Origin: Aquilaria yunnanensis
Lineage: Eukaryota; Streptophyta; Magnoliopsida; Malvales; Thymelaeaceae
Direction of reading: 5' to 3'
Assembly (NCBI GenBank): GCA_039654915.1
Contig: JBDJPA010000011.1
Span: 1 to 64,000, forward strand
Length of the DNA: 64,000 nt
In this document: piece after piece, positions 27,579 through 53,246 of the stretch
Numbering within the stretch: position 1 is the stretch's first letter
Layout of the letters: each line of letters begins with the position of its first letter
Notes under the pieces: generated by a model
What the model was told of the DNA's origin: nothing
Seen by the model: only the letters and a program-made list of their open reading frames with translations
Database searches by the model: none
Position numbers and translations under genes: made by a program

Positions 27579-29732
27579 TGTGGCAACGTGCGGGTCTTTT
27601 TCGGGAGTCGCCACCAATCGGTTTACCTAGGTCGATTGGACACCTTAAAATTGGTCTGCGAGAGTTCGGGGATCGGGAGTACGGTTACGCTAAAACAACT
27701 TTGTTATAGCGCCCAAAATTGGCACCTTAGTTAATTTTAATTTTGTTTTGCTTTGCTTTTAGAAAATATTCAGTTAATTTTCAAACTAGAAATTTTAACT
27801 GAATTAATCGGATGTGGATTTTTAAATTAATTTATATAAAATTTTATACTTCCGAACCATGGACTCTGCCGAGTCATTTGGACACGGAAGATTTTTATTC
27901 CGAACCATGGACTCTGCCGAGTCATTTGGACACGGAAGATTTAATTCCGAACCATGGACTCTGCCGAGTCACCCGGACACGGAATTTGACAAAATTTTAA
28001 TCCATATCGTAAATATGGATTTTTGTCTTTGTATTTATTTAATTTTTTACTCAATTAATTTAAAAAAGACACTTTCCAAACCGTAGATCCTGCCGGATCA
28101 TCCGGATATGAAAATTATTTTAATTTATAATTAATTATTTTTTTATGAAATTAATTGTTAGTTTAATTACTAATTTATAAGTTTTTATTTATGAAATTTT
28201 AGATTTTTGTCAATGATTTTTAATGTTAACCTAAAAATTTTGTTTTGTTTATTTTTTTTTTTTTATATTTTTACTTTTATTTTACTTTCTTTTCTTTCTT
28301 TCTTTTCTTTCTTTTAGTTTTCTTTTTATTTTCTTGTTTAATGAAAGATATTTATTAATTATTTAAGGAATCAAAATAATTTCTTATTTATCTAACATCA
28401 AGATTCTTTATTAAAAGAACAAAGAGTTATATGACTAAAAAATACTTTTACTTTTTACTTCTTTCTTTTTATTTATTTATTTTTTTTATAAAAAAGTAAT
28501 TATTTAGTTATTTAATACCAGGATTTTATTTATTTACCAAAGAAAACAAAAGAGTTAAAAATAAAATCTTGATATTCATGTATTTGATTGATTTTTTTTT
28601 TGTTTGATAAAAGATAAACCAAAAAATTAATTATCCAATAAAATAATAAAGAAAAGATTTATATAAAAAGTCTTGATATTTATATTTCATTTTTTATAAG
28701 AGATTAACCAAAAATGATTATTTAATAAAGAAATCAAGGATTTATATGTATATTTTAAAAATAGAGAAAAGTCATAATATTTATATATTTTATTTTTTGA
28801 TAAAAGATTAACCAAGAGTAATTTTTAAAAAAAAAGAAACTAAAAATTTATATGTATATCTTTAAATAAACGTAAAGTTTTATTTCTGAATAAAAATGAA
28901 CCAAAAAGTTATTATTAGGATTTTTTGTATATTTAATAAAGAAATCACAAGAAATAAAATACAAAGTTTTAATTTTTTTATTAAAGAAAGATTTTGTTTG
29001 TTTGTTTTTTTTTTATTATTATTTATTATTTTACTAGATTAAAGTAATTATAAAATTAATTTTTATTTTAAAAATATTTTTATTCTCCAAACCATTGGAT
29101 CCTGGCGGATCATTTGGACATGGAATTTAATTTTTATTAAATTTTTATTTTTAATTAATTAATCAATTATTAATTTTAATCATAATTTTATTATTATTTT
29201 AAAGATATGTTTAAAAAATTGTTTTGTATATTTTTTTGTTTATTAATTATGTTTGTTTATTAATTTTTAACAAAAAGGAAGAAAAAGTTAACTTTATGTT
29301 ATCTTTAAAGAAATAATAAAAACATATGTTCCAAAATAATAAAAGATAATTGGCTTTTAAAAATGATTTTTTTATTAGCCTTAATAATTATTCACATAAA
29401 ATTCCTTTTTTTTATTTTTTTATTATTGTTTATGACAATTAAAATAAATTTAACCACCAAAAAGACAGTTAATAATAATAAAGTGGGGCTTTTTGGCTAT
29501 CTACTTTAATAACACAATAATAATAAAAGTTAGAAAAGTTAGTAAAGTTAATTGTTAATAACAATAAAAATAAAAGTTAGTAATGTTAGTTGAGTTAATT
29601 ATAACAACAATAATAATAAAAGTTAGTGAAGTTAGTTATGTTAGTAACAACAATAATAATAAAAGTTAGTGAAGTTAGTAAGTTAGTAACAACAATAATA
29701 ATAAAAGTTAGTGAAGTTAGTAAATTAGTAAC

Positions 29733-29787
<55 letters not shown>

Positions 29788-29850
29788 GGTTAGTAAAGTT
29801 AGTCGTGTTAGTTGAGTTCTGTAAAAATTAAAGGTTAGTGACTTATAATG

Positions 29851-29886
<36 letters not shown>

Positions 29887-31771
29887 GTAAAACAATGGCT
29901 AATTTGTAAATCAGAACAATATTAGGGTCTCGGATAAACGAATCAAATAAGATCTAACCAGCTCACACAATTATACTTAATATTAATTCTTTAAGTTTAT
30001 TCATATTCTTAAATAAATGAACAAACAAAGAGATAAAAGAAAATAAACATTAGTAACCAAATTGTAAATCCAAAACAGCTTAAAAGTCTCAGACGATCAA
30101 ATTAAATAAATTGAGTGACAAATTATTTATTAAAAATATTTATACAACCTAATCATGTAATTAATCTTAATGTTAATTTGTAAGTTAATTTATGCCTTTA
30201 ATTTAGCTGAACAAACAAAAGCATAATGAAAAAAAATAAGTAAATTAATGACTTTACTGCAAATAAAAACAACATTAGAGTCTCAATTAGACAAATCAAA
30301 TAAATCCAGGGACAAAATTATAATTATGCCAAAATTATGAACTTTTGAATCAGATTCTGGTTTGAGAATGGGTCGATTTGCAATCTGAGTTTTATTATTT
30401 AATTTTAATTTTTGCTTTTGTTTGCTTTAAGTAATATCAATTGATATCCAAACCATGGATTCTAACCAAATCATCTGGATATGGATTTTTTTATTTACTA
30501 CCGTCCTAAATTCATCTTTGAATTTTCATTAAAACCGGCTCAGAATTGAATCTTGTAAATATGAACGTTTAAATGTATTATGTAAACATGAGTTTTAAAT
30601 TTGTGCTACTAATGAAAAATTAAAATCAATACATAAGTAAAAATCTGATGAACATACAATTTTATATTAACTAATCAACAGATTCATGATCCAAAATAAT
30701 AAAATGAACAATTAAACAAAGAAAATCTAAACTATAAACAAAAATAATGCAATCAGTGATTGATCTGCAAGATAAAGCGAAGTTAGTGGCTCATATTGAA
30801 AGAAAATAAAAGATGGTTTTACCCAAAAATAAATAAAAAATCAATTTTGACTTGTCAACGTGCAAAACTCCAGACGCGTCTTCGTCTTCTCCCTTTGGTT
30901 TCTGTTGACGTCAGGGCGGCGCAAGGAAGGCAGAATAGATGGAGGCTGGGCTAGGCATGGCGGAGGGAGAACAGCAAGGAGGCGGACGTAGCTGATGTGG
31001 ATCAGGCCGGCGGCGGGGGACGCTGCGACGGAGTAGCAACGTAAGGATGGAGAGCAGCAGCTCGAGCAGAAGGCGGAGCAGAAGAGCAGTAGCACGAGCA
31101 GAAGGCACCGATGGAGGAGCTGGCCGAGCAGGGATCGCGGCAGCCAGGACACGGCAGGAGGCGGTGGGAGAGATCGGAGGTGAGCGACGGGAGCAGAGGC
31201 GAACGGAGGAGCTGAGAGGCGGTGGTGACGTCGGCTGGAGTAGGAGGGGGGGCGACGCAGAGAGAGAAGAAGGGAGGCGATGCCGGCAGGGGCAGGAGGG
31301 AAGAGAGCAGAGAGAGAAGGAGAGAAGCGGGGAGAGAGAGGGAAGAGAAGAGAGAGATAAAAGAGAAATTTTTTTTTTTTTGGAGAGAGAGAGAGTCTGG
31401 AGAGCTCGGGAGGGAGAAAGAGAGCTCCCTCCTGTCCGAGAGAGAGCGTCCCCCCCTGGATTAATAATTCCCCCCAGAAGGATCGAGAAGGGAGCAGAGG
31501 AGATATTTTTTTTAATTTTTTTTATTATTATTTATTTTTTTTATTTTTACATTATATTTATTATTACACACACATATTTTTAATTAATTTGATTTGATTT
31601 GATTTGATTTATAATTAATTAATTAATTAATTTTTTTCATTAATTAATAATTATTTTTAACATACATTCTATAAAACAAAAATGCCCCTAAAATAATATA
31701 TATTTTATTATTATTATTATTACTATTATTTATTTTTTTCTTTTAAGGTCGGACGAAATTGGGTGTCAACA
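27579..31771 (-). repeat. 3' LTR of the Ogre element
   Basis: Plus-strand reading starts TGTGGCAACGTGCGGG and ends GGGTGTCAACA. It contains six copies of a 40-nt stem-loop unit (27850-27889, 27898-27937, 27945-27984, 28074-28113, 29084-29125, 30446-30486), long AT-rich degenerate repeats at 28300-29050, TAA-type microsatellites at 29450-29880, and a GC-rich GA/CT-biased block at 30840-31500. The last 270 bp are almost identical to the end of the right LTR, while the GC-rich block has no counterpart there. Confidence 0.95.
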
Positions 31772-31784
31772 GCTGCCCCCCTTT
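31772..31784 (-). promoter_or_regulatory. Polypurine tract of the Ogre element
   Basis: Read on the minus strand, AAAGGGGGGCAGC directly precedes the 3' LTR start. A G-rich purine run at this place primes plus-strand DNA synthesis in LTR retrotransposons. Confidence 0.85.
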
Positions 31785-31859
31785 GCATGCTTCATGGGAC
31801 ATGATGTATGCAAAGTCGTTACCAAATTTCGTCCGGCTTAGCTAGGCATTGAGAACCTT

Positions 31860-33130
31860 CTCGCCGCCTAAATTATAAGGTTAAGGAATCCTCTTTAGAA
31901 TCTTGACGATAGGAACTCTCCTATTGTTGAAAGTTTGAGGTTAAGGGCCCTACCTTAGAACCTCGACGATAGGAACTCTTCTATCGTTTGAAGTAAAATT
32001 GATTGTTTTGAGGTTAAGGGTCCTACCTTAGAACCTCGACGATAGGAACTCTCCTATCGTTTCAAGGAAAATTGATAATTTTGAGGTTAAGGGTCCTACC
32101 TTAGAACCTCGACGATAGGAACTCTCCTATCGTTTGAAGGAAAATTGATGATTTTGAGGTTAAGGGCCCTACCTTAGAACCTCGACGATAGGAACTCTTC
32201 TATCGTTTGAAGGAAAATTGATGATTTTGAGGTTAAGGGCCCTACCTTAGAACCTCGATGATAGGAACTCTCCTATCGTTTGAAGTAAAATTGATTGTTT
32301 TGAGGTTAAGGGTCCTACCTTAGAACCTCGACGATAGGAACTCTCCTATCGTTTGAAGGAAAATTGATGATTTTGAGGTTAAGGGTCCTACCTTAGAACC
32401 TCGACGATAGGAACTCTCTTATCGTTTGAAGGAAAATTGATTGTTTTGAGGTTAAGGGTCCTACCTTAGAACCTCGACGATAGGAACTCTCCTATCGTTT
32501 GAAGGAAAATTGTTTGAATGAGGTTAAGGGTCCTACCTTAGAACCTCGATGATAGGAACTCTCCTATCGTTTGAAGTAAAATTGATTGTTTTGAGGTTAA
32601 GGGTCCTACCTTAGAACCTCGACGATAGGAACTCTCCTATCGTTTGAGAACCTCGACGATAGGAACTCTCCTATCGTTTGAAGGAAAATTGATGATTTTG
32701 AGGTTAAGGGCCCTACCTTAGAACCTCGACGATAGGAACTCTTCTATCGTTTGAAGTAAAATTGATTGTTTTGAGGTTAAGGGTCCTACCTTAGAACCTC
32801 GACGATAGGAACTCTCCTATCGTTTGAAGGAAAATTGATAATTTTGAGGTTAAGGGACCTACCTTAGAACCTCGACGATAGGAACTCTCCTATCGTTTGA
32901 AGGAAAATTGATGATTTTGAGGTTAAGGGCCCTACCTTAGAACCTCGACGATAGGAACTTTTCTATCGTTTGAAGGAAAATTGATGATTTTGAGGTTAAG
33001 GGCCCTACCTTAGAACCTCGATGATAGGAACTCTCCTATCGTTTGAAGTAAAATTGATTGTTTTGAGGTTAAGGGTCCTACCTTAGAACCTCGACGATAG
33101 GAACTCTTCTATCGTTTGAAGGAAAATTGA
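31860..33130. repeat. Tandem array of about 16 hairpin-forming units of about 75 bp
   Basis: Each unit starts GAGGTTAAGGG(T/C)CCTACC and carries two adjacent inverted repeats: GAGGTT/AACCTC with an inner AAGG/CCTT, and ACGATAGGA/TCCTATCGT around the 4-base loop ACTC. The first copy is degenerate; one place (32640-32690) has a partial unit. The array lies between the accessory genes and the polypurine tract. Ogre elements are known to hold fast-evolving tandem repeats exactly here, and these can seed satellites. Confidence 0.95.
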
Positions 33131-33600
33131 TGGATGTCGAGGTAAATGTTCCATCCTTAAAACCTCGGATTGATTGATTGATTTCGAGGCAAAGGTTCCA
33201 TCCTTAAAACCCCGATGATGAAAATTGATTGTTTTCGAGGCAAAGGTTCCATCCTTAAAACCCCGATGATGAAAATTGATTGTTTTCGAGGCAAAGGTTC
33301 CATCCTTAAAACCCCGATGATGAAAATTGATTGTTTTCGAGGCAAAGGTTCCATCCTTAAAACCCCGATGATGAAAATTGATTATTTTCGAGGCAAAGGT
33401 TCCATCCTTAAAACCCCGATGATGAAAATTGATTGTTTTCGAGGCAAAGGTTCCATCCTTAAAACCCCGATGATGAAAATTGATTATTTTCGAGGCAAAG
33501 GTTTCATCCTTAAAACCCCGATGGTGAAAATTGATTGTTTTCGAGGCAAAGGTTCCATCCTTAAAACCCCGATGATGAAAATTGATTTTGAGGCTAAGGA
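33131..33600. repeat. Tandem array of about nine 51-bp units
   Basis: Units of 51 bases with the core GAGGCAAAGGTTCCATCC and ACCCCGATGATGAAAATTG. They appear derived from the neighbouring 75-bp unit (GAGG...CCTT...CCCC keeps the first inverted repeat, while the second is lost). Because 51 is divisible by three, the array is open on both strands and gives repetitive peptides (KIDCFRGKGSILKTP); I do not regard these as real proteins. Confidence 0.95.
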
Positions 33601-34165
33601 GCTTTCCTTAGGACCTCGAGCGAAATTTATATGAAAGCAATTGAAATTGGAATAATTTTCTTCGAAAGTGTGAATTTTCATAATAGGTGAGTGCAAAAAT
33701 TTAAACTTCGATAAGATGAGTGAATCTTGATGATGACAATAACACTGACAAATTATGTAAAGGGAACGGATGTTTGGAATCAATATCCAAGGTTCATCTA
33801 ATATTTTCTTCAGTAAATATAGATTCCCTTGTGAGATATGTCATCCAAATAAGGTTAAAGCTTAACTACCCCAAAATGTTATGCCTAGTAGACCTAATAG
33901 GATGCGTTTCAAGAGTAATAAAAATTACTCTTTACTCAGCCATTCCAACCTAAAGGCATTGTCCCATGGTTTTAATATCAGCATGGACGAAACTATCATA
34001 TAAGATAACGAAATTCCCTGAAAAGAAAAACTGAAATACGAAAGAAAATGCTGATAATTAAAACTAAAGGACAAGAAAAACGGATCAGATCGCTTCTTTC
34101 TTCCACAATACTTCAACAGGGTGAGTAGAGGACCATTATGGGAGTGAACTGGTCAGGAAAGACTG
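33601..34165. other. Spacer between 51-bp repeats and LOG gene
   Basis: No supported gene. Probably holds the 3' UTR and poly(A) site of the LOG-like gene, which is transcribed toward it. The ORFs at 33720-33953 and 33925-34116 lack any recognisable feature. Confidence 0.4.
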
Positions 34166-34765
34166 TCATGTCCAATCTATCTGAATCATTGCTGGATCAG
34201 GTTCAGGAACAAAAGCTTGTATTTTATCTAGCAATTCTTCAGCAGTTGTTGCGGATATTATGATTCGTCGTGCCACTCTTGATATGAAATTCTTCTGCAT
34301 AGCATAATCCATAAAAGCTATCAGACCTGTAAAGAAATTGTTAACATTTAAAAGCCCAATGGGTTTCTTATGCAAATTAAGTTGGGCCATGGAAGCGATT
34401 TGGAAGACTTCTCTTAATGTACCAAAACCGCCGGGTAGAGCGATGAAAGCATCAGCATTTAAAAGCATTTGTAGCACACGTTCTTGCAGATTTTTTACCA
34501 CTAGCTCCTCTCCGATCGTGCCCCCAGAAATAAACTTCAAAGGTCCTGGGATAATGCCTAGAACTTGACTTCCTCCTAAAGATGCTGCTGATGCTACGCC
34601 TCCCATTAATCCGACACTACCTCCTCCATAAACTAAATGTATTTTTCGCTCAGCTAATACTCTACCCAAATGGTTGGCTGCCTTTAAATACTCTTCATCT
34701 TTTCCAGGAAAAGCCCCAGAAAATACACAAATACTTCGAAATTTACGAGTTGAGGTTTTCTCCAT
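34166..34765 (-). CDS. LOG-type cytokinin riboside 5'-monophosphate phosphoribohydrolase, intronless, inside the Ogre
   Basis: Intact 199-residue ORF from the ATG at 34765. LOG enzymes release active free-base cytokinin from its riboside monophosphate in the cytosol. Family motifs are present: SICVFSGAFPGKDEEY near the start, GGGSVGLMGG (47-56), a retained Arg at about 95, PGGFGTLRE (111-119) with the catalytic Glu, and FIS-ARRIIISATTAEELL near the end. The usual Cys-Gly after VF is replaced by Ser-Gly, and the helix with the conserved Arg is diverged. Plant LOG genes have several introns; this one has none, pointing to capture from mRNA. A longer reading frame extends to 34852, but a TATAAAT box lies within it, so the internal ATG is preferred. 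It lies downstream of four tandem cysteine-motif genes on the same strand. Activity is likely but not proven. Confidence 0.85.
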   Translation of the reverse strand: MEKTSTRKFRSICVFSGAFPGKDEEYLKAANHLGRVLAERKIHLVYGGGSVGLMGGVASAASLGGSQVLGIIPGPLKFISGGTIGEELVVKNLQERVLQMLLNADAFIALPGGFGTLREVFQIASMAQLNLHKKPIGLLNVNNFFTGLIAFMDYAMQKNFISRVARRIIISATTAEELLDKIQAFVPEPDPAMIQIDWT

Positions 34766-34796
34766 TCCTATCCTTACCCTTGTGAGAAAAGAGGAT

Positions 34797-34806
34797 ATAT
34801 TTATAG
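34797..34806 (-). promoter_or_regulatory. TATA-like box of the LOG gene
   Basis: CTATAAATAT on the minus strand, 32-42 bases before the LOG start codon. The same CTATAAAT flanked by TTCATC-like sequence precedes the first three cysteine-motif genes of the array, suggesting a shared core promoter. The spacing leaves only a very short 5' leader. Confidence 0.6.
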
Positions 34807-34864
34807 AGATGAAGAGATAAGGCAATAATTTTATTTTCAAGAATGGATACATTATTGCCAGCTA

Positions 34865-35300
34865 TTCACAGTAGTCACGAGTATGACTCTGGTCAGGTAT
34901 GGGTACACTATCGTTAAAAGAGGAGGAAAATTTTCAAAATAGCTGCTAGCATGTACAGTAGTCACTACTGTAGCTTACGTCAAGAGTAGGTATGTGATTG
35001 TTGGAAGGGAAGGAAAATTTCAAAAGTGGCAGCTATATACAGTAGTCCGTGTCAGGAGTGGGTACATTATTGCCAAAGGGGAGGAAAATTTCAAAAGCGA
35101 CAGCTAGCACGTACAGTAATCGTAACTATGGCTCATGTCAGGAGTGGATACATTATCGCCGAAAGGGGAGGAAAATTTCAAAAGCGACAGCTAGCACGTA
35201 CAGTAATCGTGACTTTGGTTCACGTCAGGAGTGGATACATTATTACCAAAAGGGGAGGAAAATTTCAAAAGCGACAGCTAGCACGTACAGTAATCATGAC
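34865..35300 (-). promoter_or_regulatory. Amplified cis-repeat array upstream of LOG
   Basis: About six copies of an 84-87-bp unit (one spacing is 74) occur between the last cysteine-motif gene and LOG. Each holds GTACAGTAATCRTGACT or a variant, then GTCAGGAGTGGATACATTAT and GGGGAGGAAAATTTCAAAA. The same TACAGNAATC-TGAC core is present once in three spacers of the array, near 36051, 36876 and 37669, also with the ACATTATTGTCAAAAG block. Copy number is thus raised only in front of LOG. A regulatory role is inferred. Confidence 0.6.
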
Positions 35301-35352
35301 TTTGATCCTCGTCTTCCACTGGCTTTGCGTCCAGTAATGGCTTCAATGCTTT

Positions 35353-35901
35353 CTATGAATCGGTGATTTGCATCTCATCTAGCTTTCTCACAAACTGGCA
35401 AACAGGGTCGTTTAGGGTCAGATTCCCAAGACTGTAACGATCTCGTTCTTTTTGGAAAATTATCCATAATCCAACAACCTCAAATTGCACTATTCCGCAA
35501 GAATGCGCTTCAAGAACCTCTCGAATATCTTCTAGAGATTCCTTACGCAAGCCATTCTTAATGAATCTTATTCTATCATTACGATTTCTGGTGATCACTC
35601 CTGGAGCACGACATTTATTGCCGCAAATCCACCATCCACAATTATGACAAACGCCTAGCCTCTTTGCTCTTCTTTTTTTGGCATAAGCGCTTTTACCAAA
35701 GCCGGGCATACGGGGAAAGAACGCTTCGGGAACTTCACCAGCTGAACGAACCTTAGCTTCAATTAGCCACCGCACATTATCAGGAATGCCTTTGTGCATA
35801 AATACTCTGAATCGTTCACATCTAGCTTGATAAATCTTTTTAAGAACATTTATTGGGAAGGAAGGAAAATACTTTCGTAGGGCGGAAAGAGAAGACTCCA
35901 T
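35353..35901 (-). CDS. Cysteine-motif basic protein, copy 1 (carlavirus NABP-like)
   Basis: 182 residues from the ATG at 35901, which matches the start of its paralogues (a Met five codons upstream is also in frame). Helical N-terminus (LSALRKYFPSFPINVLKKIY), then a basic block SAYAKKRRAKRLG (71-83) directly followed by Cys85-X2-Cys88-X4-Cys93-X3-Cys97. The tail ends with RYSLGNLTLNDPVCQFVRKL. A basic YAxKRRAxxxG stretch followed by a four-Cys cluster is the organisation of the carlavirus nucleic-acid-binding protein family, which includes suppressors of RNA silencing. The Cys spacing is not the same as in that family, so homology needs a profile search. No plant family comes to mind. TATA-like box at 35961-35968. 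Confidence 0.7.
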   Translation of the reverse strand: MESSLSALRKYFPSFPINVLKKIYQARCERFRVFMHKGIPDNVRWLIEAKVRSAGEVPEAFFPRMPGFGKSAYAKKRRAKRLGVCHNCGWWICGNKCRAPGVITRNRNDRIRFIKNGLRKESLEDIREVLEAHSCGIVQFEVVGLWIIFQKERDRYSLGNLTLNDPVCQFVRKLDEMQITDS

Positions 35902-35960
35902 TGATGAAGGAGGCAAAGAAAGAAATTAGTGATTGTAGGAAACGAACATAACTAACACAT

Positions 35961-35968
35961 ATTTATAG
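35961..35968 (-). promoter_or_regulatory. TATA-like box of cysteine-motif gene copy 1
   Basis: CTATAAAT on the minus strand, about 60 bases before the start codon at 35901, allowing a leader of about 30 bases. Same sequence context as in copies 2 and 3. Confidence 0.55.
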
Positions 35969-36117
35969 TGATGAAAGGGATAATGCGTTTATTACACTTA
36001 CAGAAGCAAGTACATTATTGTCAAAAGAAAAGACAAATGACAGCTTATATGTACAGCAATCATGACTGTGGCTCTCATCTTCCACTGATTTATGTCTAGT
36101 AACGGCTTCAATGCCTT

Positions 36118-36666
36118 CTATAAGTCGGGGATTTGCTTCCCATCCAGTTTTCTCACAAACTGGCGAACAGGGTCATTAAAAGTTAGATTTCCAAGACTGT
36201 AACGATCCTGTTCTTTACGGAAAGTCCACCATAAATCCATAATTTCCCATTACACTATTTCACAAGGATGTGTTTCAAAAGTTAATAGGATATCATCCAA
36301 AGATTCCTTACGCAGGCCATTCTTGATGAATTTTCTTTTATCTTCATGATTTCTGGAGATGTATCCTAAAAAGCGACATTTAGTATTACAATTCCATCGT
36401 CCACATTTATGACAGACACCTAGCCTCTTTGCTCTTCGCTTTTTGGCATAAGCGCTTTTACCAAAGCCGGGCATACGGGGAAAGAACGCTTCTGGAACTT
36501 CACCAGCTGAACGAACCTTAGCTTCAATTAGCCACCGCACATTGTCAGGAATGCCTTTGTGCATAAAGACTCTAATCCTTTCACATCTAGCTTGGTAAAT
36601 CATTTTAAGAACATTTATTGGGATGGAAGGAAAGTATTTTCGCATGGCGGAAAGAGTAGAATCCAT
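36118..36666 (-). pseudogene. Cysteine-motif basic protein, copy 2, truncated by a premature stop
   Basis: Homologous to the other copies across its full length, but an in-frame TAA at about 36250-36252 ends the protein after 138 residues; in the paralogues this place codes for Gln. The frame stays open beyond it to the normal end (RYSLGNLTFNDPVRQFVRKL, stop at 36118). The basic block SAYAKKRRAKRLG and cysteine cluster (CHKCGRWNCNTKC) lie before the stop, so the shortened product would keep the presumed nucleic-acid-binding part. Whether it still works is unknown. Confidence 0.7.
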
Positions 36667-36786
36667 TGATAAAAGAAGAATTTGAGAGAAGAGATGAAGA
36701 AATCAGTTATTGTAGGAAACTGAAATAACCGATTATGAGAGTCAGAGAGTATTGCATCCGCTACTTAACCGGAAAGAAGAACACGC

Positions 36787-36794
36787 ATTTATAG
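36787..36794 (-). promoter_or_regulatory. TATA-like box of cysteine-motif gene copy 2
   Basis: CTATAAAT on the minus strand, about 120 bases before the start codon at 36666. The preceding TTTCATCG context matches copies 1 and 3. Confidence 0.5.
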
Positions 36795-36942
36795 CGATGA
36801 AAGGATAACGTGTTAATTACGCTTACAGGAACAAGTATATTATTGTCAAAAGAAAAGACAAATGACAGCTTATATGTACAGGAATCATGACCGTGGCTCT
36901 CATCTTCCCCTGATTTATGTCCAGTAATGGCTTCAATGCCAT

Positions 36943-37491
36943 CTATAAGTCGGGGATTTGCTTCCCATCCAGTTTTCTTACAAACTGACAAACAGGATCG
37001 TTTAAAGTCACATTCCCAAGACTGTAACGGTTTCGTTCTTTATGGTAAGTCCTCCATAAACTGATAATTTCACCTTGCACTTTTCCACAAGAATGCGTTT
37101 CAAGAGTCTCTCGGATATCTTCCAGAGATTCCTTACGCAGGCCATTCTTAATGAATTTTCTTTTATCTTCACGATTTATGGAGATGTATCCTAAAGAGCG
37201 ACATTTAGTAATACAATTCCATCGCCCACATTTATAACACACGCCTAGTCTCTTTGCTCTTCGCCTTTTGGCATAACGGCTTTTACCTAAACCGGGCATG
37301 CGGGGCATAAATGCATCTGGAACTTCACCCGCCAGACGGACCTTAGCTTCAATTATCCACTGCACATTATCAGGAATGCCTTTGCGTGTAAAAACTCTGA
37401 TTCTTTCACATCTAGCAAGGTAGATCTTTTTAAGGACTTTTATTGGAAAGGAAGGAAAGTATTTTCGCAGTGCAGAAAGAGTAGAATCCAT
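36943..37491 (-). CDS. Cysteine-motif basic protein, copy 3 (carlavirus NABP-like)
   Basis: Intact 182 residues. Same design as copy 1: LSALRKYFPSFPIKVLKKIY at the N-terminus, SRYAKRRRAKRLG (71-83), then CYKCGRWNCITKC giving Cys85-X2-Cys88-X4-Cys93-X3-Cys97, and the C-terminal NDPVCQFVRKLDGKQIPDL. The basic block is even richer in arginine than in copy 1. Start codons of the four copies lie 765-825 bases apart, so the gene was amplified together with its promoter and leader. Its TATA-like box is at 37572-37579. Confidence 0.75.
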   Translation of the reverse strand: MDSTLSALRKYFPSFPIKVLKKIYLARCERIRVFTRKGIPDNVQWIIEAKVRLAGEVPDAFMPRMPGLGKSRYAKRRRAKRLGVCYKCGRWNCITKCRSLGYISINREDKRKFIKNGLRKESLEDIRETLETHSCGKVQGEIISLWRTYHKERNRYSLGNVTLNDPVCQFVRKLDGKQIPDL

Positions 37492-37571
37492 TGATGAGAG
37501 AAGAATTTGAGAGAAGAGGGAAATGAATCAGTTATTGAAGGAAACTTAGATAACCGACTGGAAGAACATGC

Positions 37572-37579
37572 ATTTATAG
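37572..37579 (-). promoter_or_regulatory. TATA-like box of cysteine-motif gene copy 3
   Basis: CTATAAAT on the minus strand, about 85 bases before the start codon at 37491, in the same context as the boxes of copies 1 and 2. Confidence 0.55.
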
Positions 37580-37737
37580 CGATGAAATGGATAACGTGTC
37601 GATTACACTTACGGGAGCAAATACATTATTAAAAGAAAAATGGAAAATTTTAAATATGATAAATTGTATGTACAGTGATTGTGACTGTGGCTCACATCTT
37701 CCACTGGTTTTACGTCCAGTAACGGGATTAATGGCTT

Positions 37738-38286
37738 CTATGAGTCGAGGATTTGCTTCCCATCCAGTTTTCTTACAAGCTGACAAATAGGGTCGTTTAA
37801 CGTCAGATTCCCGGGACTGTATCGTTCTCGTTCTTCATGAAAAATGCTCCATAAATCGAGAAGTTCACGTTGCACGGATCCACAAGAATGCGTCTCAAGA
37901 GTCAATTGGATATCATCCAATGAGTCCTTACTCAGGCCATTCTTAATGAATCGTATTTTATCTTCTCGATTATCAGAGATCATCCCTAAAGAACGACATT
38001 TAGTATTACAGGTCCAGCGTCCGCATTTATGACAGACGCCTAGTCTCCTCGCTCTTCGCTTTTTGGCATAAGAGCTTTTGCCTACACCAGGCATGTGAGA
38101 CACAAATGCCTCTGGGATTTCACCTGCCAGACGAACCTTAGCTTCAATTAACCACCGCACATCTTCAGGGATTCCTTTATGCATCAGAGCTCTTAATCGT
38201 TCACAGCGAACTTGGTAGATCTTTTTGAGGATGTTCATTGGGAGAGAAGGAAAATATTTTCGCAAGGCAGAAAAAGTAGGATCCAT
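37738..38286 (-). CDS. Cysteine-motif basic protein, copy 4 (carlavirus NABP-like), first of the array
   Basis: Intact 182 residues, start at 38286 (MDPTFSALRKYFPSLPMNIL). Basic block SSYAKKRRARRLG, then CHKCGRWTCNTKC with the same cysteine spacing as the other copies, and NDPICQLVRKLDGKQILDS at the end. It is the copy nearest to the integrase end and the most diverged in the middle (MPGVGKSS instead of MPGFGKSA). Its upstream region shares the CCGC-CTTAACCGGAAA block with copy 2, but I see no clear TATA box, so it may use another promoter or the retroelement transcript. Confidence 0.75.
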   Translation of the reverse strand: MDPTFSALRKYFPSLPMNILKKIYQVRCERLRALMHKGIPEDVRWLIEAKVRLAGEIPEAFVSHMPGVGKSSYAKKRRARRLGVCHKCGRWTCNTKCRSLGMISDNREDKIRFIKNGLSKDSLDDIQLTLETHSCGSVQRELLDLWSIFHEERERYSPGNLTLNDPICQLVRKLDGKQILDS

Positions 38287-39581
38287 TTTCTAGGAGAAAG
38301 TAAAAGAAAGGAGGGAGGAAATGATCAGTTATTATGGGCAACTGAGAGAACCGACTTGAGAGTCACGGAGTACCGTATCCGCCGCTTAACCGGAAAAGTG
38401 AATCCTACTTTATTTTGATGTGATAGATATTCCATCCAGCTGACGTCGATTCAGTCCTTGATTATTGAATCCATTGTCCACTTTTGACGAATTTTCAACG
38501 ACAATATTTCTTGATGTCTGCCTTATCTTTGACGATAGTTATCACTCATCTTGGATGCTGCTAAGCTGGCATCAATTCTGTTCTTTTAGGTGTAGCCTCA
38601 ATTGCCAGGCTTTTGACGATATTGTATGCTTTATCCTTGGATTCCTGATGGGGCTGGGTCCAGCGTATTAGCTATGCGTCCAATTAGTAAGAGCTGATGT
38701 CATTAAGATCTCAGCTTATACTGCTGCAATCATGCTGCGGACATGCTTTTCATTTGATCCCTGTTATGTAAAAGTCATGCATGCATGATGTGAAATGCAT
38801 GAATGCAAGGCATGTGTAATTGATGGTTTTTTTTTTTTTTTGAATCTAGCTCTTCATGTCTTTGCTTTACTTTACTGGATCTTCTTTGTGATTCCCTTCT
38901 CGGACTATTATTGAATCTCTTTATGCTTTCCAGCTGTTGTCCATTGTCTCAAAAGCCCAACTTTGTTCAAAAATCCTCTTTCCTTGCCTTATTTTTGAAT
39001 TTTGACCTCAATTTTCTTTAATGCCCGCCTCATATTTTATGCTTCTCTGGATAATTGTCCCTGTTGAAATATTCGTGAGCATGATTCTTTCCTGCTGACA
39101 TAGACATGTTAAGACTTCTGAAATGATCATTCAGGCTACCACCAAGGCTATCTCCCAAAGATTTGTTACTCCTTCTTCTTTGTTAGCCTATGTTCTGTGC
39201 TGCTCGCAAAGCAGGACCTCAATCTTACCTGTTTTAATTCACAAAGCTTATCAAAGTAATCTACGGTCTTTGTTTTTTTCTAAGTTTTAATTATTACTAT
39301 TCTTCCTTCAAAAGTCACAATTTATTGCACACTTAAGGCTAGTAGGAATGTGAGATTTGAAGGAAAAGAACTGGATAGAAGCGACTTTAGCATTTTGAAC
39401 GTGAGAATCTAAGGTAAGTTAAAGAGAATTGGCTTTTATTTATGGGTAAAAGAATATGAAAATCTTGGGTACAGATAGATAATGAAAGTGTAAGGGAAGA
39501 AAGCTCTCTTTGACAACTTTGATCAAATAAACTTTGGTAACCCTGTATCCACTTCTCCCCTTCTGTTCGAAAATTTCTTCA
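38287..39581. other. Spacer between integrase and the accessory genes
   Basis: No supported gene in 1.3 kb. Contains a CATGCATG-rich stretch (38775-38800) resembling RY elements of plant promoters and a poly-T run (38826-38840). It may hold the promoter of accessory copy 4. Confidence 0.4.
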
Positions 39582-42500
39582 TTATGCAAAGTATTTCTTT
39601 ACTGCATCCAAATTTACTGGCTTTAGTAATTCTCGTCCATCCATTTCTGTCAGAATTAGTGCCCCTCCTGAAAATGCTTTCTTCACGACATATGGCCCGT
39701 CATAATTTGGTGTCCATTTTCCTCTTGAATCATGTTGCATGGGTAAAATTTTCTTGAGCACTATGTCACCTTCGTGAAATTGTCGTGGGCGAACCTTTTT
39801 GTTGTAAGCACGAATCATCCTTCTTTGATAAAGTTGCCCATGGCAGAGGGCTATCATTCTTCTTTCATCAATTAGATTTAATTGCTCGTATCTAGCTTTG
39901 ACCCATTCTGCTTCTCCTAATTGAGTATCCATTAGTACCCTTAATGAAGGAATTTCAACTTCGATGGGCAATACAGCCTCCATACCGTATACCAGAGAAA
40001 AAGGTGTTGCTCCAGTAGAAGTACGGGTAGAAGTTCTATAAGCATGCAGTGCAAAAGGTAACATCTCATGCCAGTCCTTGTAAGTGACGATCATCTTTTC
40101 AACAATTCTCTTGATATTTTTATTGGCCGCTTCTACTGCACCATTCATCATCGGTCGATAAGGTGCTGAATTGAGATGCTTGATTTTGAATTGCCGGCAT
40201 AAAGTCTGCATCATTGCATTATTCAGGTTCGTGGCATTGTCTGAGATGATACACTCTGGCGGTCCATAGCGACAAATGATTTCTTTCTTAATGAACCGGC
40301 ATACCACCTTTTGAGTTACGCTTGCATAAGACACAGCTTCTACCCATTTAGTAAAGTAGTCAATTGCAACTAGGATGAATTTGTGACCATTGGAAGCTTT
40401 AGGGGTAATCGCTCCAATAACATCGATTCCCCACATGGCAAAAGGCCAAGGTATTGCTGTTACATTAAGAGGAACAGGTGGAGCTTGGATCTTGTTGGCA
40501 TATATTTGGCATTTGTGACATTTTCTTACGTGATTGACGCAATCACTTTCCAATGTGAGCCAATAGTAACCAGCCCTCATTATTTGTCTTGCCATGGTAT
40601 GACCACTAGTGTGTGCTCCACATATTCCAGAATGAACTTCTTCCATGATCTTTCGTGCTTCATGAGTATCTACACAGCGAAGTAGCATCGAGTCTGGGGT
40701 TTTCTTGTAAAGTATGTCTAGGTTTAAAAGAAAACCCATTGACAATCTTCGTAGAAATTTCTTGTCATTTTCTGATACTTCTGGTGGATATACTCTTTCT
40801 TGGAGGTATTTCTTGATATCGTGATACCAAGGCTTTCCATCCAATTCTTCTTCGATGCTCATGCAATAAGCTGGAGAATCTATTATTCTCATCTCGAACA
40901 CAGGAGTATGCTCGGGGTCACTGATCTTGTACATAACAGCCAAAGTAGCTAAAGCATCCGGTATTTGATTATCTTCCCTTGGAAGATGATGGAAGCTTAT
41001 ACTGTTGAATTTTTGAGCCAAGTCTAGTATGAGCTTTTGGTAAGGGATCAATTTTGAATCCCTTGTCTCCCATTCTCCGTTGATTTGATATATGACTAAT
41101 GCGGAATCCCCATAAACTCGGAGATCTCGCACTTTCAATTCCAGTGCCATTTGGAGTCCCATAGCACATGCCTCATACTCTACTATATTGTTGGTACAAG
41201 GAAATGTAATTTTTGCTGTAAGAGGGAATTGCTCTCCACTTGGAGAGATGAGCATGGCTCCAATCCCTTGTCCCAAAGCATTAGATGCTCCATCGAATGC
41301 CATTTTCCATGTTTCATCATCTTTAGAGACTTCTTGTTCTATTGTCATTATATCTCCATCAGGAAACTCCATTTTCATTGGCTTATAATCATCCAATGCT
41401 CTATCAGCCAGATATTCAGCAATCACACTCCCTTTTACAGCCTTTTGGGTGACATACTGTATGTCGTATTCAGACAACAGCATTTGCCATTTTGCGATCC
41501 TGCCTGATAAAGCTGGTTTTTCAAAAATGTACTTAATGGGATCAGTCTTGGAGATTAGCAATGTGGTGTTGTTGAGCATGTAGTGTCGTAGTCGGTGTGC
41601 TACCCATGCAAGGGCACAACAGGACTTTTCTACTATTGAGTATTTCGCTTCATATGTGGTAAGCTTCTTGCTCAAATAGTAAATTGCATGCTCTTTCTTG
41701 CCTGTCTCATCACGTTGACCTAATACGGATCCTAATGAAGAATCCTGTATGGATAAATATAGAATCAACGATTCTCCAGATCGGGGTGGTACCAAGACTG
41801 GTGGATTTGATAGATATTGCTTGATTTTCTCGAATGCTTCTTGGCATTCGTTATTCCACTCGATCGGATTGTTCTTCTTCAGTGATTTGAAAAGAGGTTC
41901 ACACTTGGATGTCAATTGTGAAATGAACCTTGCTATGAAGTTGATTCTGCCCAGAAAACTTCTTACTTGTTTTGGAGTCTTCGGGGGTTGCATTTCTTGT
42001 ATTGCTTTGACTTTACTCGGGTCAACTCGAATCCCATCCTTGCTGACCATGAAACCCAATAACTTTCCTGAAGAGGCTCCAAAAATACATTTGGCAGGAT
42101 TCAACTTCAGTTGATATTTGCGAAGTCTATCGAATAGTTTTCTTAGCACTTTTAGATGCCCCTTAGCAGTGAAAGTTTTGGCGATCATGTCGTCTACATA
42201 TACTTCAATTTCTTTATGCATCATGTCATGGAATAATGCAACCATGGCTCTTTGATATGTAGCACCAGCATTCTTTAACCCAAAAGGCATCACCTTGTAG
42301 TAGAAGGTACCCCAAAGGGTTATAAAGGCAGTTTTTATCATATCATCTGGATCAAGTTTGATTTGATTGTATCCAGAGAAGCCATCCATGAAGGAAAAAT
42401 AGGAGTTTCCTGCGGTATTATCCACCAGTGTATCAATGTGAGGAAGTGGGAAGTTATCTTTAGGACTGGCTTCGTTCAATGGCCGGTAGTCCTGACAAAC

Positions 42501-42980
42501 TCTTAGTTTCCCACTTTCTTTCTTTTCGACTGGAACAATGTTAACCACCCATTCTGTATATTCAGCGACCCCAAGGAATCCTGCATCCCACAGCTTTCGA
42601 ATCTCATCTTTCACTCTTAAGATTAGATCCGACTTTAATCTTCGTAACTTTTGTCTGACAGGCTTCGCCCCAGGTTTCAAGGGTATTTTGTGTAGTACTA
42701 TGTCTGAGCTTAAGCCAGGCATATCTTGGTATGACCAAGCAAACACATCCACATATTCTTTCAATAAATGGACTAATTCTTCTTTTTCTTCAGGAGGGAA
42801 TAAAGTGCCAATCTTGACTTCTTTTACATCCTGACTGTCTCCCAGGTTGAATACCTCAGTTGGTTCTTGACTTGTTGCCCTTTCTTTTTCATCTCGCTCA
42901 ATCATTTTTAATAGCTCAGGAGATACTTGAAGATCTTCGTCATCCGAGTCGGTAGTGTTTACAGGATTATCAAAGTTCAT
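39582..42980 (-). CDS. Ogre pol: reverse transcriptase, two RNase H domains, integrase
   Basis: Intact 1132-residue ORF. Reverse transcriptase at about 125-305 with D199 (MDGFSGYNQI), MPFGLKNAGATYQRAM and YVDD (261-264). Ty3-type RNase H at about 405-510 (DSSLGSVLGQ). A second, archaeal-like RNase H at about 557-690 (AFDGASNALG with D563, NNIVEYEA, GDSALV with D625), a Tat/Ogre mark. Integrase has an H-H-C-C finger (HSGICGAH ... CHKC, C821/C824) and D853, D914, E950 with the D,D35E spacing; no chromodomain. The frame is open upstream to a splice acceptor at 43011, so the first Met (42980) is probably not the true start and the domain is reached by splicing from gag-protease. Confidence 0.95.
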   Translation of the reverse strand: MNFDNPVNTTDSDDEDLQVSPELLKMIERDEKERATSQEPTEVFNLGDSQDVKEVKIGTLFPPEEKEELVHLLKEYVDVFAWSYQDMPGLSSDIVLHKIPLKPGAKPVRQKLRRLKSDLILRVKDEIRKLWDAGFLGVAEYTEWVVNIVPVEKKESGKLRVCQDYRPLNEASPKDNFPLPHIDTLVDNTAGNSYFSFMDGFSGYNQIKLDPDDMIKTAFITLWGTFYYKVMPFGLKNAGATYQRAMVALFHDMMHKEIEVYVDDMIAKTFTAKGHLKVLRKLFDRLRKYQLKLNPAKCIFGASSGKLLGFMVSKDGIRVDPSKVKAIQEMQPPKTPKQVRSFLGRINFIARFISQLTSKCEPLFKSLKKNNPIEWNNECQEAFEKIKQYLSNPPVLVPPRSGESLILYLSIQDSSLGSVLGQRDETGKKEHAIYYLSKKLTTYEAKYSIVEKSCCALAWVAHRLRHYMLNNTTLLISKTDPIKYIFEKPALSGRIAKWQMLLSEYDIQYVTQKAVKGSVIAEYLADRALDDYKPMKMEFPDGDIMTIEQEVSKDDETWKMAFDGASNALGQGIGAMLISPSGEQFPLTAKITFPCTNNIVEYEACAMGLQMALELKVRDLRVYGDSALVIYQINGEWETRDSKLIPYQKLILDLAQKFNSISFHHLPREDNQIPDALATLAVMYKISDPEHTPVFEMRIIDSPAYCMSIEEELDGKPWYHDIKKYLQERVYPPEVSENDKKFLRRLSMGFLLNLDILYKKTPDSMLLRCVDTHEARKIMEEVHSGICGAHTSGHTMARQIMRAGYYWLTLESDCVNHVRKCHKCQIYANKIQAPPVPLNVTAIPWPFAMWGIDVIGAITPKASNGHKFILVAIDYFTKWVEAVSYASVTQKVVCRFIKKEIICRYGPPECIISDNATNLNNAMMQTLCRQFKIKHLNSAPYRPMMNGAVEAANKNIKRIVEKMIVTYKDWHEMLPFALHAYRTSTRTSTGATPFSLVYGMEAVLPIEVEIPSLRVLMDTQLGEAEWVKARYEQLNLIDERRMIALCHGQLYQRRMIRAYNKKVRPRQFHEGDIVLKKILPMQHDSRGKWTPNYDGPYVVKKAFSGGALILTEMDGRELLKPVNLDAVKKYFA

Positions 42981-43011
42981 TCTTTCATTGTCATCAAAGA
43001 GAGTTTTGGGT

Positions 43012-43210
43012 CTGCATTATCCAGAGAGAAAAGAAAGAGAAGAAAAAAAAAATGGCACGAATGAGATGGATGCAAACTGGTACTTTATTTACAATGTGCA
43101 TAAATCACAACTTTATTGGAATAAAAAGCAATAACTAAAAGGTTCACTTAAACAAAGACTACACCCTATTGATTGAACCTTTCTTTAGGAGGTTTTTACT
43201 ATTAGATTAC
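43012..43210 (-). other. Ogre intron between protease and reverse transcriptase
   Basis: A donor GTAATC at 43210 and an acceptor after a strong pyrimidine tract (TTCTTTTCTCTCTGG then AATGCAG) at 43012 give a 199-bp GT-AG intron. Removing it would link the small protease-side reading frame (43211 and upstream) in phase to the pol frame. Spliced introns at this place are established for Ogre elements. A stop codon (TAA) lies just inside the intron. Confidence 0.8.
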
Positions 43211-43460
43211 TTTGGAAAGCTTTCGATTATAACAGGCAGTTCTATCGCCTCCCAATTGTTCAGCACATCCCGTGGGCCACAAGGTTGAACAAGCTCCTCC
43301 TCTTCAGGTGAATCGCTGATGATTGCCTGAATAGAAAGACTTTCAAAAGACTTGTTGATGTTGATAGTCAGCTTGCCTTCATTGTCATTTTTTGGAATGA
43401 GACCACCACTCACGAACGTTTCGGTGATTTCAGGGATATCCAGATTTCTTTCCTGGAGAG
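43211..43460 (-). CDS. Ogre protease-side exon end, in a shifted frame relative to gag-protease
   Basis: The reading frame NLDIPEITETFVSGGLIPKN to NNWEAIELPVII runs from about 43460 to the intron donor and is in phase with pol after splicing. It is out of phase with the gag-protease ORF, which overlaps it and stops at 43410. The change falls at about 43459-43463 and is best explained by loss of one base; a programmed frameshift is a weaker option because no slippery heptamer is seen. The segment bridges protease and reverse transcriptase. Confidence 0.65.
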
Positions 43461-46400: not shown

Positions 46401-46517
46401 GATGGGGACTTGAGTTGCTTTCCCTTTGATTAATTCCATCAATTGTCTCATCTGTTCTGACATACTTTCAATCTTGGACTCCATCTCCATGAGACGTCCT
46501 TCGGCTTGTTCTGCCAT
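43410..46517 (-). CDS. Ogre gag-protease with C-terminal G-patch
   Basis: 1035 residues. A coiled N-terminus (MEMESKIESMSEQMRQLMEL), then the Retrotrans_gag core at about 130-300 (FVKYDGTSDPITHI, ALQWYLSQGP, PETFKEYAQRWRDLAAQV). A run of eight-residue PNRPNDYP-like repeats follows. Two finger-like motifs fit Ogre gag: CPYHDGTVGHGLENC and CNFHNSKSHSIQEC. Protease has the catalytic LIDNGSALNV (Asp at 796). Near 967-1000 a G-patch is seen (GGYSPGLGLGQDLQG then YGLGF). The last 20 or so residues are out of the frame expected for linkage to pol, so the end is probably the product of a 1-nt deletion. Forms virus-like particles and processes the polyprotein. Confidence 0.92.
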   Translation of the reverse strand: MAEQAEGRLMEMESKIESMSEQMRQLMELIKGKATQVPIKEVQDPTYPPGFTPQRVSVQENLFQESGPSASVHLKQDTVQEEKKTLPKEEAESQKLETIEKRLRAIEGGTIFGSLSVDDLCLVPDVVIPSDFKVPDFVKYDGTSDPITHITLFLRRLQPLTKDEKVWIALFQESLTKSALQWYLSQGPRNIKTWNDLAQAFIGNYKHVMDLAPDRQTLQNMEKKKPETFKEYAQRWRDLAAQVQPPMTEREMVTLFVQTLKYPYYDKLIGNAATNFSDVVMSGERIEHGIRTGKITESFSDPMKRGGPSRRKDEEIQQIGRGREIPFVGTVATGPRLSYSTNKPNYYPTNRPNDYPPNRPNDYLPNRPNNYPPNRPNQLRPPVPTPPVPAPRPREIFAPIPMTYTELYPKLIESQLIRPIPTRPLEPPYPRWYDPNINCPYHDGTVGHGLENCIALKRIVQQLIESKWLDFSDEPNVTHNPLPPHQAKPVNMMEEYWPMKKTVNDIITPLKHVYSCLVKEGIIIGKSSGNKEVEDEEWCNFHNSKSHSIQECPEFRKSLQSLMDSSQIIVFMSDKEDDVNVIIKEQEVNIMPRPLVIPISKSALKPLRIQVPKPFPYKSDKTVPWNYGYTSNITSTPLEVGGMTRSGRCYSPEQMNKLQQEKNVTDPANGPINTSKEQEMPRAVTDEQATEFLKLIKQSEYSIVEQLNRLPAKISILSLLLSSDAHREALLKVLNKAYVEQDISVNNFDHLVNNITAQNLITFTDDEIPAEGRGHSKALHISIKYKDRIMARVLIDNGSALNVMPLETLHKIGLDPSYLNNSHIVVRAFDGTKRDVVGEIELPIGIGPCLFHITFQVMDICPSYTCLLGRPWIHMAGAIPSSLHQKMKFIIEGKIITVFAEEDILLSRPADAQYVEVNENIPDCSFRSFEIVNAAYVSEYGEEPIPSISKTSRMVAKLMIKGGYSPGLGLGQDLQGITEPLKITTNEGKYGLGFTPTRHDKMKAIAEKREKRIARLTGILSRKEIWISLKSPKRS

Positions 46518-46706
46518 TAATCTTGTTTGGAGTCGAGTTGAATATCGGTGTTGAGGTCCAATTTTACCCCTTTTAAAGGAATATTTATTTTATTAGATTC
46601 TATGTGTGTATGATTGATGTGATGGATGCATGCATGAATATTGTAAATACTTGGTGAAAGAAGAACTATAATGGAATTTCTCAATTACATTCAGCAAAAG
46701 GTTTGT
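46518..46706. other. Short spacer between Ogre ORF1 and gag
   Basis: About 190 bases with no ORF; an ATGCATGCATG run lies at about 46626-46636. Confidence 0.5.
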
Positions 46707-49007: not shown

Positions 49008-49025
49008 TCCCCAGTGGAGTCGCCA
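49008..49025 (-). promoter_or_regulatory. Primer binding site complementary to tRNA-Arg
   Basis: On the minus strand TGGCGACTCCACTGGGGA begins three bases after the 5' LTR. It pairs with the 3' end of plant tRNA-Arg(ACG) as I recall it, with one mismatch. Ogre elements are known to use tRNA-Arg. Confidence 0.85.
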
Positions 49026-49876: not shown

Positions 49877-49970
49877 CATGGTACGGGGCGTTGTTACTCA
49901 GCCAGACCCTTTTCACCAGGTGAAACAGCTCAAAAGTGGGCACGAGACAGTTTCCAGCCAATATACCATG
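49877..49970. other. 94-bp GC-richer insert in the 5' LTR
   Basis: Sequence with inverted ends CATGGTA and TACCATG that interrupts an AT-rich part of the LTR and is absent from the 3' LTR. One minus-strand frame is open for the whole length (LAGNCLVPTFELFHLVKRVW). Origin unknown; it may be a captured exon piece or organelle DNA. Confidence 0.35.
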
Positions 49971-50338: not shown

Positions 50339-50404
<66 letters not shown>

Positions 50405-53241: not shown

Positions 53242-53246
53242 ATAAC
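53242..53246. repeat. Target site duplication of the Ogre element, right copy
   Basis: ATAAC, identical to 27574-27578. Confidence 0.9.

Follow-up and report, generated by a model that had tools for sequence, protein, structure and literature searches.

The window, the whole 64 kb stretch of Aquilaria yunnanensis DNA that was analyzed, holds a whole Ogre/Tat-type element on the minus strand (27579..53241; 25,663 bp, or 25.66 kb), with TG..CA LTR ends on both sides and an identical 5-bp target site duplication (TSD), ATAAC, at 27574-27578 and 53242-53246. The 5' LTR (49029..53241, minus strand) measures 4,213 bp and the 3' LTR (27579..31771, minus strand) 4,193 bp, with its inner edge at 31771. 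An earlier note on this DNA had called the element a nearly intact Ogre; the LTR pair is less alike than this description implies, since the two align well at their ends only. An estimate of the element's age from the pair was dropped because the LTR bodies align poorly. Just inside the 5' LTR is a probable primer-binding site (49008..49025, minus strand), which we take to be a match to tRNA-Arg, and a candidate polypurine tract (31772..31787, minus strand) adjoins the 3' LTR; both were read from the sequence.

The genes of the element also run on the minus strand. ORF1 (46707..48425; 572 aa) matches DUF7745 (E 4e-55) and scores 32.6 bits for the plant mobile domain, below the cut-off of 34.9; the Ogre survey places this domain in the ORF1 of 57% of Ogre elements (PMC6317226). 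It is followed by gag-pro with a G-patch (43410..46517; 1035 aa) and by pol (39582..42980; 1132 aa), which covers RT, RNase H, a second RNase H, and integrase. The matches in pol (RT_RNaseH 403-505, RVT_3 571-680, Integrase_H2C2 770-827) place the second RNase H between the RNase H and the integrase. As in the Ogre clade, gag-pro and pol occupy two frames; 393 bases lie between gag-pro and the point where the pol frame opens, and the same survey gives an average gap of about 274 bp between gag-pro and RT-RH-INT (PMC6317226). Arrays of 73-bp and 51-bp tandem repeats make up part of the 3' untranslated region (31934..33587, minus strand). In its size, long LTRs, ORF1 preceding gag, tandem repeats, two frames for gag-pro and pol, and placement of the second RNase H, the element resembles the Ogre clade as set out by Neumann et al. 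2019 (PMC6317226). It differs from that clade in the genes found after its integrase; the plant mobile domain is the only one that section 13 of that survey names for the extra ORFs of Ogre elements.

These genes form a module of four tandem NABP-like genes and one LOG gene, all in element sense between the integrase of pol and the 3' LTR. The earlier note had described four tandem genes for cysteine-motif basic proteins and a LOG gene there, and the open frames on the minus strand confirm it. In element order, the NABP-like genes are N1 (37738..38286; 182 aa; Carla_C4 and Viral_NABP, each E 1e-6), N3 (36943..37491; 182 aa), N2 (36250..36666; 138 aa in the window copy, where it ends early), and N4 (35353..35901; 182 aa). 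Units of an 87-bp repeat (34917..35335, minus strand) separate N4 from the LOG-type gene (34166..34852; probable start codon at 34765; PF03641, E 2e-30). Also between these two genes, the sequence around 34903-34959 can be aligned with the region upstream of N3. The LOG stop in the window copy comes 10 codons earlier than in 19/20 sampled copies, so that two genes, N2 and LOG, end early here.

The TATA-like boxes proposed for LOG and three of the four small genes are also present: TATAAAT lies 40 nt upstream of the ATG of LOG, 66 nt upstream of N4, 127 nt upstream of N2, and 87 nt upstream of N3. Within the window, the 13-mer CATCnCTATAAAT is found at four places, all on the minus strand and at these same four genes. 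With the window included, the TATAAAT box was found in 20/20 copies of N3, 14/14 of N2, 21/21 of N4, and 21/21 of LOG; the scripted pattern gives 20/21 for LOG, as one copy (L018) has one base different before the box. No TATAAA was found within 200 nt upstream of N1 in any of the 21 copies, window included.

The four small proteins have a pI of 9.5-10.1, and each carries a C-x2-C-x4-C-x3-C motif and a KKRRAKR-type basic patch. All four match Viral_NABP (PF05515) and Carla_C4 (PF01623) in Pfam above the curated cut-off, and PF01623 is present in all of the 120 clusters listed out of 177 homologous ones. They share the cysteine motif, the basic patch, and the profile matches above cut-off with the cysteine-rich nucleic-acid-binding proteins of flexiviruses but differ from them in being retrotransposon-encoded, in being tandemly repeated, and in having a conserved C-terminal region (NLTLxDPVCQFxRKLDG) that lies beyond the parts matched by the profiles. 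By their sequence, then, the genes are homologues of the flexivirus family that are encoded in a retrotransposon and are not virus genes; this family membership was absent from the earlier note. A viral fold search with NABP gave weak E-values, none reaching 0.001; its first 28 rows comprised 25 proteins of named viruses, presumably flexiviruses, and 3 without a name, and 23 of the 25 were named nucleic-acid- or RNA-binding proteins or silencing suppressors. Solved structures gave no significant match for NABP (best E 0.61). The predicted fold is poor (pLDDT 65, pTM 0.30), and a claim about the fold was dropped for this reason. Viral contigs searched with the NABP protein and the NABP alignment returned 3 and 33 pattern matches, of which 0 were confirmed, and plasmid records returned no match to NABP. 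The paralogues are under purifying selection, with a dN/dS of 0.21-0.46 among those in the window.

The LOG protein matches Arabidopsis 2a33 with an E-value of 9e-53 and keeps 64 of the 105 columns that are nearly invariant across 95 host LOG proteins. The PGGxGTxxE motif and the aligned active-site Arg are kept in 21/21 copies including the window, and the motif is found in 109/120 LOG relatives. In a LOG tree, 32 element-type rows cluster together (98/96) and stand apart from 16 host rows, which were drawn from part of the host LOG branches and include a gymnosperm sequence and LOG8.

The same 842 Mb genome holds many copies of the module: 150/150 scored matches to N1 are at least 99% identical and free of stops. 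Twenty further copies were sampled by NABP identity (100% N1 protein identity), and every one has three to four NABP genes and LOG in the same order, so the module is not confined to one copy. Their frames are largely open (89/92, of which the 20 N1 frames are open by choice), and 3/92 end early. Judged by these sequences, the module travels with the element in a large number of copies, which are for the most part intact. LOG has a pN/pS of 0.17 across 18 distinct copies, 0.08 within the 15 copies, counting the window, whose upstream sequence is of the window type, and 0.23 within six copies without detectable pol; single pairs, with few changes, reach up to 0.64. LOG is under purifying selection across copies, and the neutral decay (dN/dS near 1) that the earlier note had allowed for is contradicted by the value of 0.17. 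Selection on NABP among copies is weaker than on LOG (pN/pS of 0.45 for N3, 0.41 for N2, and 0.56 for N4, the last inflated by one frame-shifted copy), and the value of 0 for N1 is a product of the sampling, which took copies with 100% N1 protein identity. Copies that diverge in LOG at as many as 27% of synonymous sites still have nearly the same N1, and the copies therefore exchange segments.

In six of the 20 copies, the sequence between the 5' LTR and the module, including the 1.3 kb upstream of the module, gave no match to ORF1 or pol at E 1e-3. Their 18/18 NABP frames (six of them N1, chosen for) and 6/6 LOG frames are nevertheless open, and these intact genes may be refreshed by recombination. 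Retention of the module in copies without detectable pol suggests that it benefits the copy that carries it; the module would thus pay its carrier, with gag-pol borrowed in trans.

The best explanation, to which we give a probability of about 0.55, is that the NABP and LOG genes are a conserved accessory module of an Ogre-lineage family that suppresses silencing and promotes cell division from its own promoters. An accessory module with promoter-like boxes in an Ogre-type element, as first suggested, is supported by the many copies and by a LOG pN/pS well below 1. Short mRNAs would start at the TATA boxes, independent of the LTR transcript. The NABP proteins would move into the nucleus and bind nucleic acid, and they would dampen the RNA silencing directed at the element; they could possibly also act on host transcription, as is reported for their relative CVB p12. 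Passages of PMC12172455 describe a viral relative as a transcription factor and a weak silencing suppressor. LOG would release active cytokinin in the expressing cell, which would keep dividing, and continued division would make new insertions likelier to reach meristem or germ-line cells. The guess that the small proteins protect the element from silencing gains weight because they belong to flexivirus nucleic-acid-binding and silencing-suppressor families. That the module proteins suppress silencing, activate cytokinin, and raise cell division is inferred.

The NABP proteins could instead act in the replication cycle (as a nucleic-acid chaperone, a packaging or nuclear-import factor, or a transcription factor that controls genes of both the element and the host) rather than suppress silencing, with the module still a selected part of the element and LOG only adjusting the state of the cell. 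A zinc-finger-like motif with a basic patch fits any nucleic-acid-binding function, the report of a viral relative in both roles fits too, and a cis-acting packaging or promoter role would account no less well for retention without pol. We nonetheless hold this to be rather unlikely, as the fold search and PMC12172455 give several viral relatives that bear the name of silencing suppressors or are described as such. A packaging factor also leaves the linked LOG unexplained. Another proposal gives LOG a mainly regulatory or scaffolding role, in which the basic and LxLxL (EAR-like) tail at the C-terminus of its relatives would recruit TOPLESS-type corepressors against host defense or development genes. 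LxLxL is an EAR-type motif with a link to TOPLESS, and it occurs in the last 15 residues of 100/120 LOG relatives as compared to 0/120 proteins closest to Arabidopsis LOG3, a host control that spans the LOG3 side of the family only. However, the tail is absent from the window LOG and 20/20 sampled copies, although LOG evolves under purifying selection and retains its active-site motif in all 21, so the proposal is improbable. An LxLxL tail for the window LOG itself was considered and rejected, as its sequence lacks one.

The module might also be a separate mobile unit, or a host gene cluster, that Ogre elements repeatedly invaded or nested in, and the copies do share the module while differing in their LTRs and upstream parts. 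This is very improbable given that about 1200 bases upstream of the module, up to the end of pol, are 96.6-99.8% like the window in 14/20 copies, and that in the other six the module is preceded by LTR sequence from this same family, with the leader as well in four of them. In the two window-type copies whose upstream was examined, pol is 99% identical directly upstream of the module. A separate late insertion into the element, which the earlier note had raised, is likewise made unlikely by the upstream sequence common to the 14 copies. Least credible of all is that the element captured host and viral genes at random and carries them as passengers without function. LTR retrotransposons are well known to capture genes (PMC7264820), and the two early stops in the window copy and the 3/92 frames that end early elsewhere would suit it. 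It is largely contradicted by the NABP and LOG relatives in several plant genera, with joined NABP-LOG gene models in Citrus, Rhamnella, and Gossypium; by pN/pS or dN/dS below 1; by the 89/92 open frames; and by the single LOG group in the tree.

Beyond the accessory-module reading favored here, we offer more tentatively, and with some doubt, that a virus-like early-gene module (flexivirus-type suppressors and a cytokinin-activating enzyme, with their own promoters) is kept in several eudicot groups and that gag-pol-less satellites spread keeping just the module. If true, a retrotransposon would manage both host defense and host cell fate, and selection would favor the same genes in its pol-less parasites. 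The module links the suppressors known from plant RNA viruses to retrotransposon genes, and the transfer may have run either way: flexiviruses could have taken the suppressor from such elements, or the reverse. Few of the extra genes in plant LTR retrotransposons have a known function, and this module, which belongs to an abundant family, is under strong selection in one gene, and is retained in copies without detectable pol, points to defined, testable activities (suppression of RNA silencing and release of cytokinin). It also offers a tractable case for asking whether transposons manipulate the hormone state of the host to reach the germ line.

The view that such genes are unknown in these elements is not supported as it stands, as gypsy-type elements with a LOG (YgdH) domain have already been published for Citrus and Populus (PMC9289625, section 12, citing Steinbauerova 2011). 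Those elements resemble ours in having a LOG-type domain inside a plant gypsy-type element, but that section of the paper mentions neither a Viral_NABP or Carla_C4 domain nor a second gene paired with LOG, and no promoters, selection among copies, or pol-less derivatives. LOG in plant gypsy elements was thus already known; the published literature searched yielded no paper on the NABP half, the NABP-LOG pairing, or retention of the module without pol. Another precedent is gene23 of maize Grande, along with other 3' additional ORFs: such accessory genes lie in the 3' internal region and have a promoter of their own. As described in PMC7264820, gene23 is antisense and without described relatives, whereas the module in the window is in sense orientation, comprises several genes, and has viral and host-enzyme relatives.

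On sequence evidence, the genes between integrase and the 3' LTR are a real, selected, multi-copy accessory module, with a function that we infer from relatives of its proteins. The module is carried by one Ogre/Tat-type LTR retrotransposon of 25,663 bp on the minus strand (27579-53241). Both LTRs start with TG and end with CA, and the 5-bp flanks (ATAAC) are identical on either side. In element order, the 5' LTR (53241-49029) is followed by ORF1 (572 aa; DUF7745, with a plant mobile domain score below the cut-off), gag-pro (1035 aa; G-patch), pol (1132 aa; RT, two RNase H domains and integrase), the module, 73-bp and 51-bp tandem repeats, and the 3' LTR (31771-27579). The frames of ORF1, gag-pro and pol are open in this copy.

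The module begins with four tandem NABP-like genes, all on the minus strand: N1 (37738-38286), N3 (36943-37491), N2 (36250-36666) and N4 (35353-35901). All four proteins exceed the Pfam cut-offs for both Viral_NABP (PF05515) and Carla_C4 (PF01623), and each has a C-x2-C-x4-C-x3-C motif adjoining a KKRRAKR-type patch, with a pI of 9.5-10.1. A protein search with N1 returned 177 clusters with E up to 1 from 284 candidates; PF01623 is present in each of the 120 listed, which include proteins of Rhamnella, Populus, Xanthoceras, Orobanche, Gossypium and Citrus. The fold model of the NABP protein is poor (pLDDT 65, pTM 0.30), and its 65 matches among predicted viral structures have low TM-scores, none reaching E <= 0.001. 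Places 1-28 of these matches hold 25 proteins from named viruses, which we take to be flexiviruses, and three nameless ones; 23 of the 25 are annotated as silencing suppressors or nucleic-acid/RNA-binding proteins, and the other two as "15kDa protein" and "HP". The Pfam matches are taken as the evidence for homology, and the viral fold search as agreement with it.

The last gene of the module is LOG (minus strand, 34166-34852, with a probable start at 34765), which matches PF03641 (2e-30) and Arabidopsis 2a33 (9e-53). The PGGxGTxxE motif and the aligned active-site Arg are present in the window LOG and in all 20 copies sampled from the genome, and the window protein retains 64 of the 105 columns that are nearly invariant among 95 host LOG proteins. 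A tree was built from 49 proteins: 32 element-type rows (the window and 31 of the 120 listed LOG relatives), 16 host LOG proteins, including a gymnosperm and LOG8, and one bacterial outgroup row. "Element-type" is our label for the 120 best LOG relatives, given from sequence alone. The 32 element-type rows form one group (support 98/96) separate from the host proteins. Among the 120 relatives, 41 are Reevesia pubescens clusters, whose names carry 15 different chromosome prefixes by hand count. An EAR-like LxLxL sequence lies in the last 15 residues of 100 of the 120 relatives (P0121-P0240), mostly preceded by a basic run when read by eye; LxLxL is the EAR motif bound by TOPLESS. In a comparison set, the 120 nearest matches to Arabidopsis LOG3, no protein has it there. 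This tail is absent from LOG of the window and of all 20 sampled copies.

Four of the five genes share an upstream sequence. Within the 64 kb, CATCnCTATAAAT is found at four sites, all of them on the minus strand and 40-127 nt upstream of the start of LOG, N4, N2 or N3. Counting the window with the 20 copies, the 200 nt upstream of the start contain a TATAAAT box for N3 (20/20), N2 (14/14), N4 (21/21) and LOG (21/21 on reading the table, 20 by scripted pattern), and for N1 in 0 of 21. Upstream regions were aligned and judged against the best of 100 single-base shuffles. The LOG region aligns with those of N4 (score 43 versus 28) and N3 (40 versus 27), and does not exceed the shuffles with N2 (31 versus 31) or N1 (20 versus 34). 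Given the similarity to N4 and N3, the putative promoter probably spread as part of the tandem duplication.

The module is not confined to this element. In the genome of the window (842,125,765 bases in 345 contigs), a search with N1 gave 8559 first-look candidates, of which 150 were scored; all 150 cover the full length at 99% identity or more, without stops, and 50, including the window, were identical. The 20 copies were all fetched from these 100% matches, so that intact N1 genes (usual length in 20/20) are there by choice. Three to four NABP genes and LOG stand in the same order and sense in all 20. Frames of the usual length were found for N3 in 19/19 (L020 lacks N3), N2 in 13/13 (a separate N2 gene is missing in seven), N4 in 18/20 (L009 and L015 end early) and LOG in 19/20 (early stop in L016), or 89 of 92 frames overall. 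None of the 20 shares the early stops of the window copy, one in N2 and one close to the end of LOG. Copies can be densely clustered: a stretch of about 0.56 Mb on contig C4 of the assembly (82.20-82.76 Mb) holds 19 of the 150 scored N1 matches. In L020 the N4-LOG spacer is about 2.6 kb longer than in five other copies measured, and LOG is open.

The sequence upstream of the module matches the window over about 1200 bases to the end of pol in 14 of the 20 copies (96.6-99.8%), and pol is present at 99% without stops in the next 3.5 kb of the two that were fetched further. Window-type upstream sequence was not found in the other six copies (L010, L018, L019, L020, L024 and L027, with L031-L037), for all of which 3.5-7 kb upstream was fetched. 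This sequence contains family LTR sequence in 6/6, leader in 4/6 and gag remnants in 5/6 (none in L035), with no ORF1 or pol match at E 1e-3, and no ORF1, gag or pol match was found in the 1.3 kb adjoining the module. The deletion patterns vary, with one junction common to L032 and L034. In these six pol-less copies, every NABP frame (18, including six N1) and every LOG frame (six) is open.

Selection is most evident in LOG, for which pN/pS is 0.17 over 18 distinct copies, 0.08 among the 15 copies, counting the window, that have window-type upstream sequence and 0.23 within the six pol-less copies. Single pairs among the latter range from 0.04 to 0.64, the highest resting on nine changes only. 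The values are 0.45 for N3, 0.41 for N2 and 0.56 for N4, inflated by one frame-shifted copy; the 0.00 of N1 arises because copies were chosen by N1 identity. Pairwise comparison of the four window paralogues gives a dN/dS of 0.21-0.46 and a dS of 0.34-0.87, and the tandem array is therefore old and has been constrained. N1 hardly varies even among copies whose LOG genes differ at 27% of synonymous sites, which argues that copies exchange segments. Such exchange may help the pol-less copies retain their module genes.

NABP and LOG belong together in other plants as well. Gene models joining NABP and then LOG are found in Rhamnella (P0085), Citrus (P0113 and P0116) and Gossypium (P0105, whose LOG half was recognised by blastp at E 2e-6). 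In another Rhamnella model, P0071, NABP is fused to an integrase-like end (blastp E 5e-4). For P0085, P0113 and P0116, the domain pairs are as annotated in the cluster listing; in our own rescan only some halves reach the cut-off. One NABP and one LOG cluster come from contigs of equal size (8723, and likewise 4511), which suggests shared contigs.

The LOG part of the module is known: gypsy-type elements of Citrus and Populus have been published as carrying a LOG (YgdH) domain (PMC9289625). We found no publication on the viral-suppressor-like part, the NABP-LOG pairing or retention without pol; for the NABP half or the module, no paper appeared among the titles and abstract starts listed, most subscription papers lying outside the search. 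In the parts available, a review of additional ORFs reports no resemblance between the antisense ones and viruses (PMC7264820), and another paper calls extra ORFs highly divergent and names the plant mobile domain for Ogre (PMC6317226). As for function, an excerpt of PMC12172455 reports that SPCFV NaBP suppresses silencing, that CVB p12 does so weakly, and that p12 has a transcription-factor role inducing hyperplasia. By analogy with these viral relatives, the NABP genes would lower silencing of the element, and LOG would raise local cytokinin.

Similarity between the two LTRs of the window element (27579-31771 and 49029-53241) is limited to their ends (92% and 98%); their middles are mostly 30-54% identical by global alignment, though the genes between them are mostly open. 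The LTR start has little in common with the seven sampled copies compared. Another LTR fragment of the same family (63180-64000) reaches the end of the window, and its first 450 bases or so are as near to each element LTR as these are to one another. Inverted repeats of 251 bases (55976-56228 and 57287-57537), 81% complementary and spaced by 1058 bases, may mark the two termini of a DNA transposon.
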